Assembly: GCA_903842345.1 (NCBI GenBank)
Contig: CAIMLR010000005.1
Location: forward strand, 62,001 to 126,000
DNA: 64,000 nt
From: an uncultured Myxococcales bacterium
GTDB taxonomy: Bacteria > Myxococcota_A > UBA9042
Direction: 5' to 3'
The translations under genes were made by a program, and so were the position numbers. The notes under the pieces are model-generated. The model searched no databases. It worked only from the letters and a program-made list of their open reading frames with translations, and had not been told where the DNA came from. Shown piece by piece: positions 24,594 through 33,940 of the stretch (position 1 is its first letter; the number at the start of each line of letters is the position of its first letter).

Positions 24594-27500
24594 TCAATCC
24601 GCCAGCGGCACCATCTCCGGCTCGTGATACGGCTCCTGGCTGTGCGGCAGGAGCTCAGCGTCCTTGGGCATGTCCTTGGGCGCAAACAGCTTGTAGAGCA
24701 GCGGCAACATCCCAAGCGACAACGCCAGTGAGGACACCAGACCGCCCACGACCACAATGGCCAGCGGCTTCTGCGAGTCCGAGCCGATGCCGGTTGACAG
24801 CGCCGCCGGCAGGAGCCCCAGGGTCGCGACAAGCGCGGTCATCGTCACGGGCCGCAACCGGAGGTCCGCCGCGCGCAGGATCGCCTCGTCCAAGTGCAGG
24901 CCTTCCGCGCGCAGCTCGTTGATGTAGGCGATCAGGATCACGCCGGTCTGCACCGACACGCCGAAGAGCGCGAGGAAGCCGACGCCGGACGACACCGAGA
25001 AGCTCGTGTTGGTCAGGAGCAGCGCCGCCAGACCGCCGAACGGCGACGTCAACAGCACGTTCACGAGGATGATCGAGGACTCACGCATCCGCCGGAACAT
25101 GATGAGGAGGATGCCGAAGATGACGAGCACCGTCGCCGGGATCACGATCGCCAGCCGCTTGCCAGCCCGCCGCGCAGATTCAAACTCGCCTGCCCACGAC
25201 ATCGAATAGCCGCTGGGCAGCTTGACCGCGTTCTCTACGGCGCGCTGGGCCTCGTCCACGGCGGATCCCAAATCGCGGTCGCGCACGCTGAACTTGATGG
25301 CGATGTAGCGGCGGTTGGCTTCGCGGAAGATGCGCGATGCGCCACCCTGCACCGTCACGTCGGCGACCATCGCGAGCGGAATCGTGACGCCATCCTTCAA
25401 CGGCACCGGCAGTCGGCGGATCGCATCGATGTTGTCGCGCTTGTCCTCCGCGTACCGCACCACCAGATCGTGGCGCCGTTCACCTTCCACGATCTGCGAG
25501 ACCGCCTTGCCGCCGACGCCCGCCTCGATCACCGCTTCCACGTCCTGGACGGTGAGGCCATAGCGCTCGGCGCGCTCGCGGGCGATCGCGATGTTGACGT
25601 TGGACTGCCCCAGCTCGCGGAAAATACCCAGATCCTCAACGCCCTGCACGTCCTTCATCGCGTGCGCCGCGCGGCGCGCGAGGTCGTCCAGCGCATTCAG
25701 GTCGTTACCCGTAATCTTGAGCGCGAGCTGGCCTTTGACGCCGGACACCGCCTCCTCGATGTTGTCTGAAATCGGCTGCGAGAAGCCAACCTCCACGCCC
25801 GGCACGACCGCCAGCGCACTCGCCATGCCGCTGATCAGCAGATCCTTGTTGCCGTGGAACTGCGGTCGCCAGGTCTCGTGGTCGGTCAGCAGCAGCAGGA
25901 ATTCCGCGTTGTAGAAGCCAATCGGATCCGTCCCGTCATCTGGCCGGCCGATTTGCGCGGACATCATCCGCACTTCCGGGAACTCGCGCAGGATTTGCCG
26001 CAGGCCTTTGACGTTCTGGCCATCGGTGTGCCGTCCGTCGACCATCTCCTCCGCTTCCGGCAGGGAAATGTTGGCGGGCATCGACACGCGCACCCACAGC
26101 GCGCCTTCATCCAGGTGCGGCAGGAACTCGGAGCCAATGCGACTCGCCATCACGGCGTCCGCGCCAATCAGCAGCGCAGCGACGAGGAATGCGATCCGCG
26201 GAACCTTCAGCGAGCGCTTGAGCAGCGGCAGATAGACCCAGCGCATCGCCGCGAGCAGCGGGTTGTGAAACTCCTTGACCTTGCCGCGGAAGAGGAACGT
26301 GCAGAGCACGGGCACCACGGTAATCGCCAGCACGAGCGCGCCGCCGAGGGCAAACGCGACCGTCCACGCCATCGGCGAGAACAGCTTGCCCTCCACGCGC
26401 TGCAGCGTGAAGATCGGCAAGTACGCGGTGACGATGATCGCAATCGCAAAGACGATCGGCCGCGCGACCTCCTTGGCCGCCGTCCGCACGAGATCGGCGA
26501 GGTCATACTTCTCCCCGCGTTCCTGCTTCTCAGCCAGTAACCTGAATATGTTCTCGACCATCACGATCGAGCCGTCGACGATCATGCCAAAATCGACCGC
26601 GCCAATGGACAGCAGGTTGGCCGGGATCTTGGCCGCGTCCATGAAGATGAACGCGATGAGCAGGGACAGCGGAATCGTCACGGCGACGATGAACGCCGCG
26701 CGGGCGTTGCCGAGGAAGATGAACAGGATGAGCGTGACGAGCAGGATGCCTTCCGCGAGGTTGTGCATGACCGTGTGCGTCGTCAGGTGCATCAACTCCG
26801 TGCGGTCATGGTGCGGGTGCAGTTTGACGCCGCGCGGGAGCACGGTCGCGTTGATCTCATCGATCCGCGTGTGCAGCCGTTCCAGCACTTGTTGGGTCTG
26901 CTCGCCTTTGCGCATCAACACCGTGGCCTTGACCACGTCCTTCTCATCGTCAATCGACACGCGGCCGAGACGCGGCTGGTAGCCGACCTGCACCTGCGCA
27001 ACGTGGCGCACGCGGACCGGCGTGCCGTCCTTCTGGGAAATCGCGACGTCGGCGATCTGCTCGGGCGAGATCAACCCGATGCCGCGCACGTTGAGCGACG
27101 CCGTGCCGAACCGCACAATACCGCCGCCCGCGTTGCCATTTGCCGCCGCAATCGCGTCCTGCACGTCCTGGATCGACAGGTTGTGCGCCGACAGCAACGA
27201 CGGGTCCAGCAGCACCTGGAATTGCTTGAGCGTGCCGCCAAAACTCGCCACATCCGCCACGCCCGGCGTCGCCAGCAGCTCGCGCTCGACCAGCCACTCT
27301 TCCAGGTCCTTGAGCTCACTCAGCGGCTTCGGCGGAACTTTGACGTCCACGTCCGCGCACTCCGGCGCCCGCGTCACGGCGCAATTCACCAGGTTGTACC
27401 GCAGGATTTCACCCACGGGACTGGCCAGCGGCCCCAAGCCGTTCGACGCGCCCGGCGGCAAATCGATGCTCCCGAGCCGCTCCAGCACCTGCTGGCGGGC

Positions 27501-27815
27501 AAAATAGCTGTCCGTGCCGTCCTCGAAGATCAGCGTCACGACGGACAAGCCGGCGATGGACGTCGAACGCAGCGAGGTCTGCTTGGGCACGCCGTTCATC
27601 ACGCGTTCGGTGGGCAGCGTGATCTGGCGCTCCACTTCTTCCGCCGCGTGGCCGGGCCACTGCGTGATGATCTGCACCCACGTGTCCGCCACGTCTGGAT
27701 ACGCCTCGATCGGCAGGCGAATGAAGGCGTTGACGCCCAGGGCCACGGAAATCAACGCCGTGATCAGAATGACCACGCGCTGCCGGAGGGCAAAATCGAC
27801 AATCCCGCGAATCAT
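24594..27815 (-). CDS. Heavy-metal efflux RND permease (CzcA/CusA family)
   Basis: This 1073-residue inner-membrane proton antiporter drives metal export through a three-part pump. It begins MIRGIVDFALRQRVVILITA and IEAYPDVADTWVQI, both typical of the heavy-metal branch. TM4 holds the proton-relay motif DFGMIVDGSIVMVEN with two Asp and one Glu. The string NIEEAVSGVKGQLALKI resembles divalent-metal (CzcA-like) members more than CusA, so Zn, Co, Cd or Ni is a better guess than Cu or Ag. Its ATG directly follows the stop codon of the adaptor gene (TAG|ATG). No metal sensor gene is adjacent. Confidence 0.95.
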   Translation of the reverse strand: MIRGIVDFALRQRVVILITALISVALGVNAFIRLPIEAYPDVADTWVQIITQWPGHAAEEVERQITLPTERVMNGVPKQTSLRSTSIAGLSVVTLIFEDGTDSYFARQQVLERLGSIDLPPGASNGLGPLASPVGEILRYNLVNCAVTRAPECADVDVKVPPKPLSELKDLEEWLVERELLATPGVADVASFGGTLKQFQVLLDPSLLSAHNLSIQDVQDAIAAANGNAGGGIVRFGTASLNVRGIGLISPEQIADVAISQKDGTPVRVRHVAQVQVGYQPRLGRVSIDDEKDVVKATVLMRKGEQTQQVLERLHTRIDEINATVLPRGVKLHPHHDRTELMHLTTHTVMHNLAEGILLVTLILFIFLGNARAAFIVAVTIPLSLLIAFIFMDAAKIPANLLSIGAVDFGMIVDGSIVMVENIFRLLAEKQERGEKYDLADLVRTAAKEVARPIVFAIAIIVTAYLPIFTLQRVEGKLFSPMAWTVAFALGGALVLAITVVPVLCTFLFRGKVKEFHNPLLAAMRWVYLPLLKRSLKVPRIAFLVAALLIGADAVMASRIGSEFLPHLDEGALWVRVSMPANISLPEAEEMVDGRHTDGQNVKGLRQILREFPEVRMMSAQIGRPDDGTDPIGFYNAEFLLLLTDHETWRPQFHGNKDLLISGMASALAVVPGVEVGFSQPISDNIEEAVSGVKGQLALKITGNDLNALDDLARRAAHAMKDVQGVEDLGIFRELGQSNVNIAIARERAERYGLTVQDVEAVIEAGVGGKAVSQIVEGERRHDLVVRYAEDKRDNIDAIRRLPVPLKDGVTIPLAMVADVTVQGGASRIFREANRRYIAIKFSVRDRDLGSAVDEAQRAVENAVKLPSGYSMSWAGEFESARRAGKRLAIVIPATVLVIFGILLIMFRRMRESSIILVNVLLTSPFGGLAALLLTNTSFSVSSGVGFLALFGVSVQTGVILIAYINELRAEGLHLDEAILRAADLRLRPVTMTALVATLGLLPAALSTGIGSDSQKPLAIVVVGGLVSSLALSLGMLPLLYKLFAPKDMPKDAELLPHSQEPYHEPEMVPLAD

Positions 27816-28943
27816 CTACAGGGCCTCGTTTGCTTCAGCGTCCAGAAGAATCGCGCCCTGCGTCACCAGCTTGTCGCCTTGCTTGACGCCCTCAATCAGC
27901 GTGACGTGCGAGCCTTGTTGCTCGCCCAGCTTGACCTCTTTTTGGTGGTAGCTGCCGTCCGGCGCCTGCAGGAATACGAAGAACTGGTCCCGACGCGCGA
28001 GCACGGCGCTGACCGGCACATCCACGGCATTGAGCGTCTGCGTCTCCACGACGGCTTGGGCGAACATGCCGGGCCGCAAGATATTGTTGGGATTGTCGAT
28101 CTCGATGCGCGTGCGGATCGCCCGCGTCGTCGCGTCAACGAGATCGCCGACGTACACGATCTTGCCCGGGAACTTCTGCCCCGGCAGCGCGGGCGTGAAC
28201 ACCGTCACCGGCGCGTCCGGCTTCACGAGCCCGAGATCCTGCTCGTACAGGTCGGCAATCACCCACACTTTGCTCAGATCCGCGACGCTGAGCAGCGGCT
28301 GATCCTGGCCCACGTTGACTTCTCGACCGACCGCGACCTGGCGATCCACGACGATGCCGTCAATCGGCGACCGCAAGTGGTAATCCGCCGAACCGTCGCC
28401 ACCGCCGACCGCGGCCAGTGACGAAGTCGCCCGATGCTCTTCTTCCACGGCCTGCGCCAACTGCGCCTGCGCCTGCTGCAGTTCCGCCTGGCTCGCCGCG
28501 CCGTCCCGCACGAGCGATTCCGTGCGATGCAGCGTGTGCCCGGCCAAAATCCGCGCCGACCGCGCCTCAGCGACCTGCGCCTGCACCGACGCGATGTCCG
28601 GCGAGTGAATCGTCAGCAGGATATCGCCCTTCTTGACCTTGTCGCCCGTGACGACTTCTACCGACGCCACGCGACCGGACACCGGCGGCCCGATCGTCGC
28701 GAGGCGCCGCTCGTCAAAAGCCACGCGCGCCACAAGCGTCCGCGAGTGCGGCGCGGTCGCGGCTTGTGCGGTCTCCACTTTGACGAACGCCGCGGAACCG
28801 CCCTTGAGCACGACGGAGCCGTCCTTGCGCAGTTCATGGGTCGGCGCGACTTCTGGCGCCTTCAGCCGTTCACAAGCGCCCGCCATCAGGACGAGAACGA
28901 GCAACTGCTGCCAATGGAAACGAATCTGGATCTTGCGATTCAT
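27816..28943 (-). CDS. RND periplasmic adaptor (CzcB/CusB-like)
   Basis: The 375-residue membrane-fusion protein links the permease to the outer-membrane channel. It has a lipoprotein-like signal (LVLVLMAGAC), a barrel-sandwich half motif (PPVSGRVASVEVVTGDKVKK), an α-hairpin (about 115-175) and a second lipoyl half (RSPIDGIVVDRQVAVGREVN). The β-barrel/membrane-proximal part ends with KQGDKLVTQGAILLDAE. ATG 28943 has AGG 8 bases upstream. It is the middle gene of the exporter, 135 bp after the TolC-like gene and abutting the permease gene. Confidence 0.93.
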   Translation of the reverse strand: MNRKIQIRFHWQQLLVLVLMAGACERLKAPEVAPTHELRKDGSVVLKGGSAAFVKVETAQAATAPHSRTLVARVAFDERRLATIGPPVSGRVASVEVVTGDKVKKGDILLTIHSPDIASVQAQVAEARSARILAGHTLHRTESLVRDGAASQAELQQAQAQLAQAVEEEHRATSSLAAVGGGDGSADYHLRSPIDGIVVDRQVAVGREVNVGQDQPLLSVADLSKVWVIADLYEQDLGLVKPDAPVTVFTPALPGQKFPGKIVYVGDLVDATTRAIRTRIEIDNPNNILRPGMFAQAVVETQTLNAVDVPVSAVLARRDQFFVFLQAPDGSYHQKEVKLGEQQGSHVTLIEGVKQGDKLVTQGAILLDAEANEAL

Positions 28944-29078
28944 GCTGTGCCTGGCGTGAGGATGATTTGGCCGCAACGCAGGACCGAACTCGCGGGTCAT
29001 GCGCTGCGCCTGTTGTTTGGACTCCGAACGGCGACGTTTGATGACGCGTTGCGCAAAGGCAACCGCGATCTGCCGCGA

Positions 29079-30401
29079 CTATTGACCGCCTGCGTACCCA
29101 GCTTGCACCGCGCGACGCAGGCGAATCTCCGCAAGGCGGGCGTCATTGGCCAACTCAATGGCCCGCAGGCGCGCGTCGCGCTTGGCGACGTACGCATCGA
29201 CGAGTTCCAGCACCGACAGCTTGCCGGCGCGATAGCCCGCTTCCGCCTCCTGCACCATGCCGTGACTGAGCGTCACGCCGGTCTCCTGGTACTGGCGAAA
29301 GTTTTCCCGGCGGCGCTGCGTTTCGTCGTGAAAGGCCCGCACGCGCTGCGTGGCTTGGAGCGTGAGCGCATCGGCGATCGCGTTGGCCACTTCCGCACGC
29401 GCGAGCGCCGCGCTCACCGCGCCCTGCCCGCGATCGATGATCGGCAGCGGAACGCCAACGCCGACCATGCCGCCGAACTCGCCGGGCGTGGTGCCGAAAT
29501 AGACGCCACCGCGCAGGGAGAAACCTGGCAGCACGTTGCGCCGCGCGACCGTGACCTGCGCCTCCGCGGCCTTGGCGCGCTGGCGGATGCTGACGATGTC
29601 CGGCCGCGCGCTCGTCGTCTCGTCCAGCAGCGTTGACAGGGACGCGGGCGTCGCAATCTCAAACAAATCGATATCGGGCAAACCGTGCAGCTGCCCGGCA
29701 TCGGGACCGACCGCGACGTCCAAATCCCCGCGTGCCTGCGCAAGATCCGCATGCGCGTCCGCGAGCGCCGCGCGCGCCTGGGCAACCGCAACTGCGATGC
29801 GCGACGCGTCATACTGGGGCGCCGCACCGGCACGCACGCGGGCGCTGACGATCTGGTTGGCGCGGTCCAATTCCGCGTTGGCCTCGGCATACAACTGAAC
29901 CTTGGCGGCAGCGCCGGTCAGCGCGACACAGGCGGATTCGACATCAAAAGCCAGCAGCCGCAACGTCAATTCGCTGTCGGACTCCACGGCCTTTTCATTG
30001 AGGCGCGCAACGGACCGCCGCGCTTCCGGCGCGCTCGCCGTTTCCATGAACTGCGTGACGCCAATGCCGACCGAACCGACCGGGTCGTTCTGCGGATTGC
30101 TGAAGCTGCGACCGTAGGAAGCGTCCGCGACCGGATTGGTCCACAGGCCGGCACCGACAACATCCGCAGCCGCAGCGCGCAGGTTGGCCTTGGCCGCTTG
30201 CAGCAGCAAATGACTGTGGCGCATCGCCTCGACCGCTTGCAGCAACGAGAAACGGGCGGTCGGCAAGTCAGCGAGTTGCTGCTTGGCGTCGGTCATCGCG
30301 CGGCCCGGCGCACGCGCGTCGGGGCCTGGTTGGCCAAGGGCCGTCGCGCTCGCGAACAGGCACGTCGACAGGAGGAGAGCTTTGGAGAAACGTCCGTACA
30401 T
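29079..30401 (-). CDS. TolC-family outer-membrane channel (CzcC-like)
   Basis: The 440-residue outer-membrane efflux protein has a signal peptide ending ATALGQ. Two tandem OEP repeats are visible: an N-terminal half around NLRAAAADVVGAGLWTNP and a C-terminal half around RRNVLPGFSLRGGVYFG, with the equivalent strings VGIGVTQFMET and VGVGVPLPIIDRGQG. It is rich in coiled-coil Ala/Arg/Glu. ATG 30401 follows AGGTGA. It is the first gene of the metal-exporter operon. Confidence 0.93.
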   Translation of the reverse strand: MYGRFSKALLLSTCLFASATALGQPGPDARAPGRAMTDAKQQLADLPTARFSLLQAVEAMRHSHLLLQAAKANLRAAAADVVGAGLWTNPVADASYGRSFSNPQNDPVGSVGIGVTQFMETASAPEARRSVARLNEKAVESDSELTLRLLAFDVESACVALTGAAAKVQLYAEANAELDRANQIVSARVRAGAAPQYDASRIAVAVAQARAALADAHADLAQARGDLDVAVGPDAGQLHGLPDIDLFEIATPASLSTLLDETTSARPDIVSIRQRAKAAEAQVTVARRNVLPGFSLRGGVYFGTTPGEFGGMVGVGVPLPIIDRGQGAVSAALARAEVANAIADALTLQATQRVRAFHDETQRRRENFRQYQETGVTLSHGMVQEAEAGYRAGKLSVLELVDAYVAKRDARLRAIELANDARLAEIRLRRAVQAGYAGGQ

Positions 30402-31540: not shown

Positions 31541-33790
31541 CTAGTAATGGCGTTCCAGCACGTACCAGCCAAACGCCCGGAGCATCAGCTTGGGCAGCGT
31601 ATCCTCCACGAGCGGTTCCAGCTTCTGCCATGCGGCTTCCACCATCTCGCGCGCCTGCGCCTCGCAAGCGTCGATGGCGTGGCACGCTTCCAGCTTCTCG
31701 ATGACAGCGTCGATCGTCGCGCGATCCTGCGGCTTGGACTGAATCGTCGCCCACAGCCACGCGCGATCCTCATGGGACAGCCGCCCCATCGCCTTGGCCA
31801 CCGGCAGCGTCACTTTGCCGTGCGCAATGTCCTCACCGCGGGACTTCAGGTCGCCCTTGAAGCCGCGCAGGTTGAGCACGTCGTCGATGATCTGGAACGC
31901 CAAGCCGATCGATTCAAAGAAGTTGCCGACGCCGTCGATCTGCGCTTCCGAACCGTTGCCGGCGATCGCGCCCATGCGCGCGAGCGTCGCCGCCGGAACT
32001 GCCGTTTTCAGACGGTGGACCGCCAGCACGCGCCGCTCCAGGAACGGCCCGTCGCCAGAAGTGACCGCCGCCGGCATCGCGTCGTCGATGCCCGCAATAT
32101 CCAGCGCCTGCCCCGCGTGCCCCGCACGCAGCGTTTCAAAGTACAGATCGTAGATGCGCAGTTTGTCGCGATCGGACATGCGATCCGAGTGCAGCAGCTT
32201 CTGGCCGAGGAAGTACGCCGCCGTGCCCGCGTTGATCGCGATCGCTTCGCCGTAGATCAAGTGCGCCGTCGGACCGCCGCGGCGAACCATCGACTTGTCC
32301 TGGACGTCGTCCACGATGAGCGAACCCACGTGCATCAGCTCCGGCATCGCCAGCCATTGCACGAACTGCCGCGAGTCGCCGCCCACCACGTCGCAGCAAG
32401 CCAGCGCCGCGTAGCTCCGCCAGGACTTGCCACCGCGGTCGGTGATTTCGCGGATCGGCTTGATGATGTTGTCGGCAAACTGCTGGATGTCGACGCCGTC
32501 GATGGCCTGCGGCCGATCCGGTCCGGCGATCAGCGCGAGCGCCTCCGTCTCATTGGGCTGCATCGGCATCACGTTGTTGATCGACTTGCGGACCTGCTTG
32601 CCCACCGCGCCAAAGAACTGGTCGAGGTTGTCGATGTCGTTCTGACCGCTGCGTTCCAGGTAACCGAGGCCGCTGACCGATTTGCCGCCGATCTCCGCGT
32701 GGACCGTGCAGCGCCCTTCCCAGAAGCCGGGCTTGGAAATGAGCGTGATGAATTCCTGATCGTCAAAATCAGCGACAAGGTCGCACTTCAGGCCGATCGA
32801 CGGCACTTCCAGCAGCCACGCCGTCGGATATTCGGCGAAGGTCCGCGTGCTGCACCAGTTGCCCGCGGGCGTGAGCCTGGTGTCGGCGTACTCGCCGCGC
32901 GTGCCGTCGGGCCACACGACGATGGTGCGCGCGTCCAGGAACTGGTGCGTGTCTTCTTGCACCAACGCGTACGCAGAAATCTCCGTGTTGTCGTCCAGTT
33001 GCACACCAAGCCACGTCCAACCGATATCCTCGCCTTCCTTCTTTTTCTCGGTCATCTTGCCGTGGCGGCCGAACTCGTGGTCGTACCAGCCCTGGGCGGC
33101 CTTCACCGCCTCATCGCCACCGGGAAGTCGAATTGTTCCCGTGACATCGCAGCGCGGCATGAAGTAGTAGAACATGTCTTCGCCGTGCGCGCCGCGGACC
33201 ACGCCGTCCACGCCGTGGCGCATCGGCGCTTTCTTGGGCGCAAACACCAGCGACGCGCCGTGCTGGCCGTCGTGCTGGCGCAGCTCCAGCGTGTAGCTGC
33301 CGTCGTCGTTCTTGCGCAGCTGATTGCCGTCAAAATCCAGCTCCAGCTTGTCCCAGGACACGAACGGGTCGCGCACGAACGGGATATCCGGATGGGGCAC
33401 GCGGCCGCGCTCCAGCACTTCGCGCATCGCGCGCTGCAGGCGGCTGTCGGACGAGCCTTCGCCGCGCTCCATCTTCTTGAGGCCCAACTGCGCGGCTTTC
33501 TTGTCGACGAGCGACTCTGAGACGTAGAGCTGCCGCGTCGGCTCGCTCAACGCCCAGGTGCAACTGTAGGCGTACTGCGGCTGTTTGGTCAGCTCGTCGT
33601 AGGCGTTGACAATTGTAAAGAAGGACGCGAACAGGGAGAGTTTGCGACCCGCGACCGTTTCCACGTGGCAATTCAGGTACCACCACTCCGTCGTCGACGA
33701 GGTATGCGGAAGGTCGTGAATTGCGAGGTCAATCGGGCCAGCGTGCGGCCAATCGGCTGGAAAACGGGCTTCAGCCGGGGTGGTGGACAT
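31541..33790 (-). CDS. CrtC/AttH-like domain fused to isoprenyl diphosphate synthase
   Basis: A single 749-residue frame with GGAG 6 bases before ATG 33790 contains two domains. Residues about 15-385 match the lipocalin-like CrtC/AttH family (carotenoid 1,2-hydratase and terpene-modifying relatives): EWWYLNCHVE (35-44), WYDHEFGRHG (235-244), WTWLGVQLDD (258-267), YPTAWLLEVPSIGL (321-334), GLGYLERSG. Residues about 435-749 are a trans-isoprenyl diphosphate synthase, with first Asp motif DDVQD (494-498) followed by RRG, GKVTLPVAKA (658-667), and second motif DDVLN (636-640). The second motif has Asn at its last position. The synthase would make a C15-C20 or longer prenyl diphosphate. The fused domain may hydrate or cyclise a prenyl product. 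There is no signal peptide and no other carotenoid gene nearby. Confidence 0.9.
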   Translation of the reverse strand: MSTTPAEARFPADWPHAGPIDLAIHDLPHTSSTTEWWYLNCHVETVAGRKLSLFASFFTIVNAYDELTKQPQYAYSCTWALSEPTRQLYVSESLVDKKAAQLGLKKMERGEGSSDSRLQRAMREVLERGRVPHPDIPFVRDPFVSWDKLELDFDGNQLRKNDDGSYTLELRQHDGQHGASLVFAPKKAPMRHGVDGVVRGAHGEDMFYYFMPRCDVTGTIRLPGGDEAVKAAQGWYDHEFGRHGKMTEKKKEGEDIGWTWLGVQLDDNTEISAYALVQEDTHQFLDARTIVVWPDGTRGEYADTRLTPAGNWCSTRTFAEYPTAWLLEVPSIGLKCDLVADFDDQEFITLISKPGFWEGRCTVHAEIGGKSVSGLGYLERSGQNDIDNLDQFFGAVGKQVRKSINNVMPMQPNETEALALIAGPDRPQAIDGVDIQQFADNIIKPIREITDRGGKSWRSYAALACCDVVGGDSRQFVQWLAMPELMHVGSLIVDDVQDKSMVRRGGPTAHLIYGEAIAINAGTAAYFLGQKLLHSDRMSDRDKLRIYDLYFETLRAGHAGQALDIAGIDDAMPAAVTSGDGPFLERRVLAVHRLKTAVPAATLARMGAIAGNGSEAQIDGVGNFFESIGLAFQIIDDVLNLRGFKGDLKSRGEDIAHGKVTLPVAKAMGRLSHEDRAWLWATIQSKPQDRATIDAVIEKLEACHAIDACEAQAREMVEAAWQKLEPLVEDTLPKLMLRAFGWYVLERHY

Positions 33791-33940
33791 CGGGGACTCC
33801 AAGGGCAAACGGGGGGCAAAGTGCGGCGAACCGGGAAGTTCGCAGGGCACTCCGTGTGCCACAGCCGGGCACTTACGTCCACACTGCGGATGTCACGAGC
33901 TTGTGAAGATGCGGCGTCGCGCCCCGCGGAACCGCCGGTC

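Follow-up and report, generated by a model that had tools for sequence, protein, structure and literature searches.

A single gene of this myxobacterium encodes a lipocalin-like half of the CrtC/AttH type joined to a trans-isoprenyl diphosphate synthase, and the same fusion is present in at least five phyla; it may be a bifunctional isoprenoid enzyme, in which chain synthesis would be followed by hydration of the omega end to a tertiary alcohol and by later tailoring, a reading to which we give about an even chance. The window (the whole stretch analysed, 64,000 nucleotides, positions 62001-126000 of contig C5 in a 5.85 Mb assembly of 50 contigs) carries the gene on its minus strand, a detail absent from the earlier note, which had correctly described an uninterrupted frame of 749 residues at 31541-33790. 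The open-frame translation runs from an ATG at 33790 to 31541 (749 aa plus stop, the stop codon lying within these limits) and has full-length relatives; read on the plus strand, this stretch is interrupted by a stop. A GTG at 33862 could serve as an earlier start, but the alignment with four relatives from the same genus begins at the ATG.

The domains named in the earlier note, CrtC/AttH-like and prenyl synthase, were borne out by family profiles, with all three Pfam matches above cut-off, and the motifs quoted there are all found at the residues given: EWWY at 35-38, WYDHEFG at 235-241, YPTAWLLEVP at 321-330, DDVQD at 494-498 and DDVLN at 636-640. From the N-terminus, and always on the minus strand, the protein consists of a CrtC-type lipocalin domain (PF07143; aa 34-241, 33068-33691; 57.8 bits against a cut-off of 22.5), a second lipocalin-like domain, Lipocalin_9 (PF17186; aa 256-380, 32651-33025; 72.8 bits against 26.2), a mostly helical interdomain linker (aa 386-441, 32468-32635; model helices at 389-407, 414-421, 427-430 and 435-450) and the synthase domain (aa 442-749, 31544-32467), of which 442-699 match polyprenyl_synt (PF00348; 163.3 bits against 27). 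The linker is the least conserved region of the fusion, with 42% mean identity in an alignment of 66 members. An Rfam scan of the window gave no match.

Fusion of the two domains is obligate among near relatives. Full-length copies from independent assemblies of the same genus are 92-94% identical, the window's own family has the fusion in 20 of 22 genomes, and a contiguous full-length version occurs in 34 of 284 sampled genomes of the phylum, with four more split by contig ends or an alignment insert. A scan of 85,000 genomes, one per species, gave 169 loci, and the best 80 of these all hold a single-frame fusion (80/80; identity 48-94%). The two grounds for doubt that had been raised beforehand, a frameshift or stop between the domains and separate genes in close relatives, both came out negative: the best 80 loci and the same-genus assemblies keep one frame, which rules out a frameshift or assembly artefact, and no separate genes were found in close relatives, the few split matches being due to contig ends or to an insert inside an open frame. 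The best 80 loci belong to Myxococcota, Bacteroidota (Spirosoma, Telluribacter, Saprospiraceae, Chitinophagales), Cyanobacteriota (Iningainema tapete) and Acidobacteriota (one MAG). One locus titled Klebsiella pneumoniae (L061, CAMDBH010000001.1) is of Myxococcota type, with a 66% identical fusion, and is a mislabelled metagenome assembly. Full-length single-frame versions are also carried on plasmids of Tolypothrix PCC 7601 and 7712 (34%) and Streptomyces canus (31.5%); a protein from a Nitrosomonas stercoris plasmid record is shorter, and Pfam detects the synthase alone in it. Beyond Myxococcota few genomes carry the fusion, 1 of 292 in cyanobacteria and 6 of 345 in Bacteroidota (two close, four divergent), the centre genome being counted in each. 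Each part of the protein is already known; for the combination, no account was found in the open-access literature searched, and RefSeq annotates the plasmid members merely as "polyprenyl synthetase family protein".

When the synthase halves were placed in a tree with 16 ordinary synthases from the genomes that carry them, the fusions came out as a separate group (support 97/67, recovered in 96% of bootstrap trees), and a single origin is favoured, though not proven, by these sequences. The halves seem to have travelled together, since pairwise distances in the N- and C-terminal halves are correlated (r = 0.77) and several groups of the synthase tree reappear in that of the N-terminal half. 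The ordinary synthase nearest to the fusions is the one in this genome's own carotenoid cluster (support 100/96, on a long branch).

The 66 aligned members come from at least four phyla, and both predicted active sites are conserved in all 66; to judge from this alignment, both domains, together with both sites, are under strong constraint. The synthase half has the features of an IPP-using synthase: a first DDxxD motif, RRG, GGKxxR and His487. In the first Asp-rich motif (DDVQD, 32297-32311, minus strand) D494, D495 and D498 are invariant (66/66), as are R503, R504, K455, R458, H487, K595, Q633, D636 and D637; the glycines are slightly more variable, with G453, in the GG of GGKxxR, kept in 59/66 and G505 in 65/66. 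The second Asp-rich motif (DDVLN, 31871-31885, minus strand) keeps its first two Asp residues and has Asn (N640) in place of the third in 66/66, that is, throughout the main group, a diagnostic peculiarity, DDxxD being the usual form among the ordinary synthases that accompany the fusion. The best Foldseek match in the PDB for this half is the GGPP synthase 1wy0 (TM 0.88), with other prenyl synthases also matching. A chain of about C20 is probably the product, a guess from two residues: positions -5 and -4 before the first DDxxD are Gly-Ser (GSLIV), which leaves no bulky stop and matches the synthase of the genome's own carotenoid cluster, whose presumed product is GGPP. A dedicated role is suggested by the presence of two or three ordinary synthases besides the fusion in each of the seven genomes checked (7/7), and on the same count a gene for plain supply of GGPP or quinone chains is unlikely. 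The polyprenyl transferase that is cargo of family 2 encapsulins was also considered and rejected, the NCBIfam score being 129.8 bits against a cut-off of 450.

An AlphaFold2 model built on the 66-sequence alignment (mean pLDDT 91.8, pTM 0.89) was compared with the PDB by Foldseek, and the N-terminal half matches the AttH protein 2ich (TM 0.83 by target) and kievitone hydratase (7a0t/7a0q, TM 0.76). Kievitone hydratase acts on a terminal prenyl group (PMC5805349). The CrtC of Rubrivivax binds its substrate in a cavity between two barrels; the terminal prenyl unit receives its proton from Asp268, and D268, W110, W283 and W285 are required (PMC12402844). Probable counterparts of all of these are invariant in the main group (66/66), the mapping being by motif order and profile columns, not by a full CrtC alignment: EWWY (33677-33688) would supply, in W36/37, the equivalent of Trp110; Asp237, next to His238 (33077-33082), is the predicted proton donor, corresponding to Asp268; and Trp258-x-Trp260 (33011-33019) is the predicted carbocation-stabilising pair, corresponding to Trp283/Trp285 (all on the minus strand). 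Q345-E346 and F356-W357-E358-G359 are likewise invariant, and so are Glu35 and Tyr38 of EWWY. A profile search aligns Asp237 and Trp258/260 with WYDRQWG and WTW, respectively, in kievitone hydratase, and with WLDREW and WDW in AttH; a Streptomyces member has Glu where others carry the Asp.

Alanine mutants of four residues of the Rubrivivax enzyme, including His239, Trp241 and Tyr266, are inactive (PMC4717167), and these three are not retained in the fusion, which has Tyr/Phe and Trp there (mapped by spacing only). A different chemistry is therefore possible, three of the four alanine-sensitive residues having been lost, and the fusion, which keeps the Asp/Trp set with those three replaced, can be called CrtC-like in its predicted working without being classed as a CrtC. 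The curated NCBIfam CrtC model (NF045922) was not among its NCBIfam matches up to E 1, and a profile alignment with the CrtC-type protein of its own genome gave nothing significant.

The earlier suggestion that one polypeptide makes and then processes an isoprenoid gains support from the invariant sites in the 66 members and from the hydratase-like fold of the N-terminal half; the intermediate might also pass directly from one site to the other, as the earlier note supposed. In the proposed mechanism the C-terminal half would extend an allylic diphosphate with IPP, making an all-trans isoprenyl diphosphate. The N-terminal twin barrel would bind the omega end of this chain, Asp237 would protonate the terminal double bond, and the resulting cation, held by Trp36/37, Trp258 and Trp260, would take up water, yielding a tertiary alcohol, as happens in CrtC and kievitone hydratase. 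The omega-hydroxylated chain may then be tailored by lineage-specific enzymes (to judge from gene association, glycosyl- or sulfotransferases, P450s or a desaturase), and the fusion, by uniting maker and hydratase, may commit the diphosphate before ordinary pathways can use it. That the product is a new isoprenoid, as had been put forward, is plausible.

Could the cation be captured by something other than water? The N-terminal domain might be a proton-initiated (class II-like) terpene cyclase, in which Asp237 would again protonate the chain and an internal double bond would capture the cation, giving a cyclic terpenyl diphosphate. An acid-plus-aromatic active site is common to both kinds of enzyme, CrtC itself has been likened to squalene-hopene cyclase (PMC4717167), and the aromatics that stand, by spacing, where CrtC has its water-handling His and Trp could shield the cation from water. 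A P450 beside the Telluribacter fusion matches terpene-oxidase models moderately (89.6 bits for pentalenene oxygenase, far below the cut-off). Against this, a hydratase is among the nearest structures and no characterised cyclase of this fold is among the top Foldseek matches, and the CrtD-like neighbour and the glycosyl- and sulfotransferase fusions described below call for a hydroxyl group; a cyclase is unlikely.

Another possibility is that the N-terminal domain is non-catalytic, a binding or release module that pulls the finished chain from the synthase tunnel for transfer to a membrane enzyme. Its lipocalin-like fold and the loss of three CrtC catalytic residues would suit such a role, and AttH is a protein without known activity for which a role in lipid metabolism has been proposed (PMC2954199). 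A hydrophobic pocket, however, would not require Asp237, His238 and the Trp set to be so strictly kept, and the Asp and Trp positions are common to two proven hydratases, so that a purely binding function seems rather improbable.

The window gene itself is flanked by genes for an FMN reductase and a GST-like protein and appears monocistronic, and because no tailoring gene is adjacent, the idea of glycosylation leans on other lineages. Close by on the same strand (24594-30401) are genes for a CzcA-like RND pump, a membrane fusion protein and an outer membrane efflux protein. The earlier statement that no carotenoid genes are nearby holds for the surroundings examined, but not for the genome: contig C4 has a carotenoid cluster with a lycopene cyclase, a synthase, phytoene synthase, desaturase-like genes and a CrtC-type protein. 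The last (L157:13725-14873) has the classical motifs GYHDRN...WxW and is undetected by the Pfam CrtC model, with a weak match to that of NCBIfam. A fused CrtE-CrtC is conceivable, in which the C-terminal half would provide GGPP for phytoene and the N-terminal half would later hydrate the carotenoid end group, and both the position of the carotenoid-cluster synthase in the tree and the CrtD-like gene adjoining a divergent branch would fit it. Since the separate cluster on C4 is already equipped with a synthase and a CrtC-type protein, and the fusion lies elsewhere, on a different contig, the window gene is probably not for carotenoids, and a part in this genome's cluster is unlikely; the glycosyltransferase, sulfotransferase and exporter partners found elsewhere are also atypical of carotenoid genes. 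Taken together, this makes a carotenoid role quite improbable.

The reading as a chain-making hydratase draws further on the neighbours of the fusion in other lineages. In the Spirosomataceae these are a GT28-type glycosyltransferase, a lipase-maturation-factor protein, an FkbM methyltransferase (2 of 3) and two P450s; in Iningainema a GT28-type glycosyltransferase lies 145 bp downstream; and in a myxobacterium (L042) there are a P450, a GDP-mannose dehydratase, an epimerase, a kinase-like gene and a GT28/MGDG-like glycosyltransferase. In the tree of N-terminal halves these loci, though from three phyla, fall together, which suggests that the gene set was transferred as a unit. In two Bacteroidota genomes a divergent fusion (25% identical) adjoins a gene for a CrtD-like 1-hydroxycarotenoid desaturase (L173:11364-12854 and L175:2619-4115). 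The substrates of CrtD are 1-hydroxycarotenoids, the products of CrtC, and this neighbour thereby supports hydration. Single frames of about 1,500 codons, encoding in order a sulfotransferase, a glycosyltransferase, CrtC, Lipocalin_9 and the prenyl synthase, occur on a plasmid of Tolypothrix sp. PCC 7601 (L161:11682-16211) and in the myxobacterial genome G121 (L040:6105-10601); the two pair up in both trees, and the Tolypothrix copy adjoins DevB/DevC/DevA-like exporter genes, with an adenylyl-sulfate kinase about 12 kb away, past transposases. Such neighbours point to glycosylated or sulfated isoprenoids as likely products in some lineages; in one divergent branch they suggest a route of the hydroxycarotenoid type.

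The most constant neighbour is a protein of about 205 aa (L069:12243-12947, L071:6451-7140, L073:4155-4820 and about 20 more Myxococcota loci), whose start overlaps the fusion stop at several loci; it has no Pfam or NCBIfam match and no match in the window's own genome. At about a dozen Myxococcota loci (among them L112:12245-14032, L092:12329-14113 and L039:6752-8515) there is a multipass protein of about 590 aa with a conserved ADD motif near its N-terminus, which looks like a GT-C-type glycosyltransferase, with no significant Pfam match. A crude tally gave 5 Glycos_transf_1, 3 GT28_C and 3 GT2 of 124 within two genes of the fusion, and 2 GT2 and 2 GT4 of 124 at a distance of six to nine genes; as the families overlap, two near genes (L119 and L124) were added by hand and a simple gene caller was used, this is not counted as a test.

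It is tempting to go further and to see in the fusion the committed enzyme of an unrecognised bacterial lipid class: isoprenoids that are hydrated at the omega end before glycosylation and, in some lineages, sulfation and export, with the protein of 1,500 residues, combining chain building, hydration, glycosylation and sulfation, as the fullest form, and the cassette having moved between Myxococcota and Cyanobacteriota. This is put forward tentatively, as a possibility of which we remain somewhat doubtful. Cultured hosts in which an undescribed lipid could be sought include Spirosoma panaciterrae, Telluribacter humicola, Tolypothrix PCC 7601 and Iningainema. Where a prenyl diphosphate synthase is known to be joined to an enzyme acting after it, the partner is mostly a terpene cyclase; a conserved fusion of the CrtC type predicts a functionalisation of the omega end right after synthesis, without oxygen or cofactors. 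It also offers a testable handle on the role of AttH/CrtC-like proteins outside carotenoid pathways. A regioselective isoprenoid hydratase is sought in biocatalysis, and among the substrates that Rubrivivax CrtC hydrates are C13-C18 isoprenoids whose polar head is an alcohol, acid, ester or keto group (PMC12402844).

Set beside known systems, the synthase half resembles trans-isoprenyl diphosphate synthases such as the GGPP synthase 1wy0, archaeal IdsA and the family 2 encapsulin cargo polyprenyl transferase in its substrate- and metal-binding motifs and its fold, and differs from ordinary members in its DDxxN second motif, the GSLIVDDxxD context, its separate group in the tree and an N-terminal extension of 440 residues. 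With CrtC of Rubrivivax gelatinosus and Thiocapsa roseopersicina the fusion shares the Pfam CrtC domain and the Asp/Trp set (W36/37, D237, W258 and W260 for W110, D268, W283 and W285); unlike CrtC, it is without His239, Trp241 and Tyr266 (by spacing), has a longer first barrel with a helical insert, is fused to a prenyl synthase, and lies in a locus without carotenoid genes. Kievitone hydratase of Nectria haematococca has the same two-barrel fold, with WYDxxxG and WxW aligning, and adds water to a terminal prenyl double bond, a reaction that the fusion may share, but it is secreted by a fungus, has a plant isoflavonoid as its substrate, is unfused and is 14% identical. The best structural and sequence match of the N-terminal half is the AttH-like protein NE1406 (PDB 2ich; profile E 1e-38), a protein of unassigned function that, unlike the fusion, stands alone.
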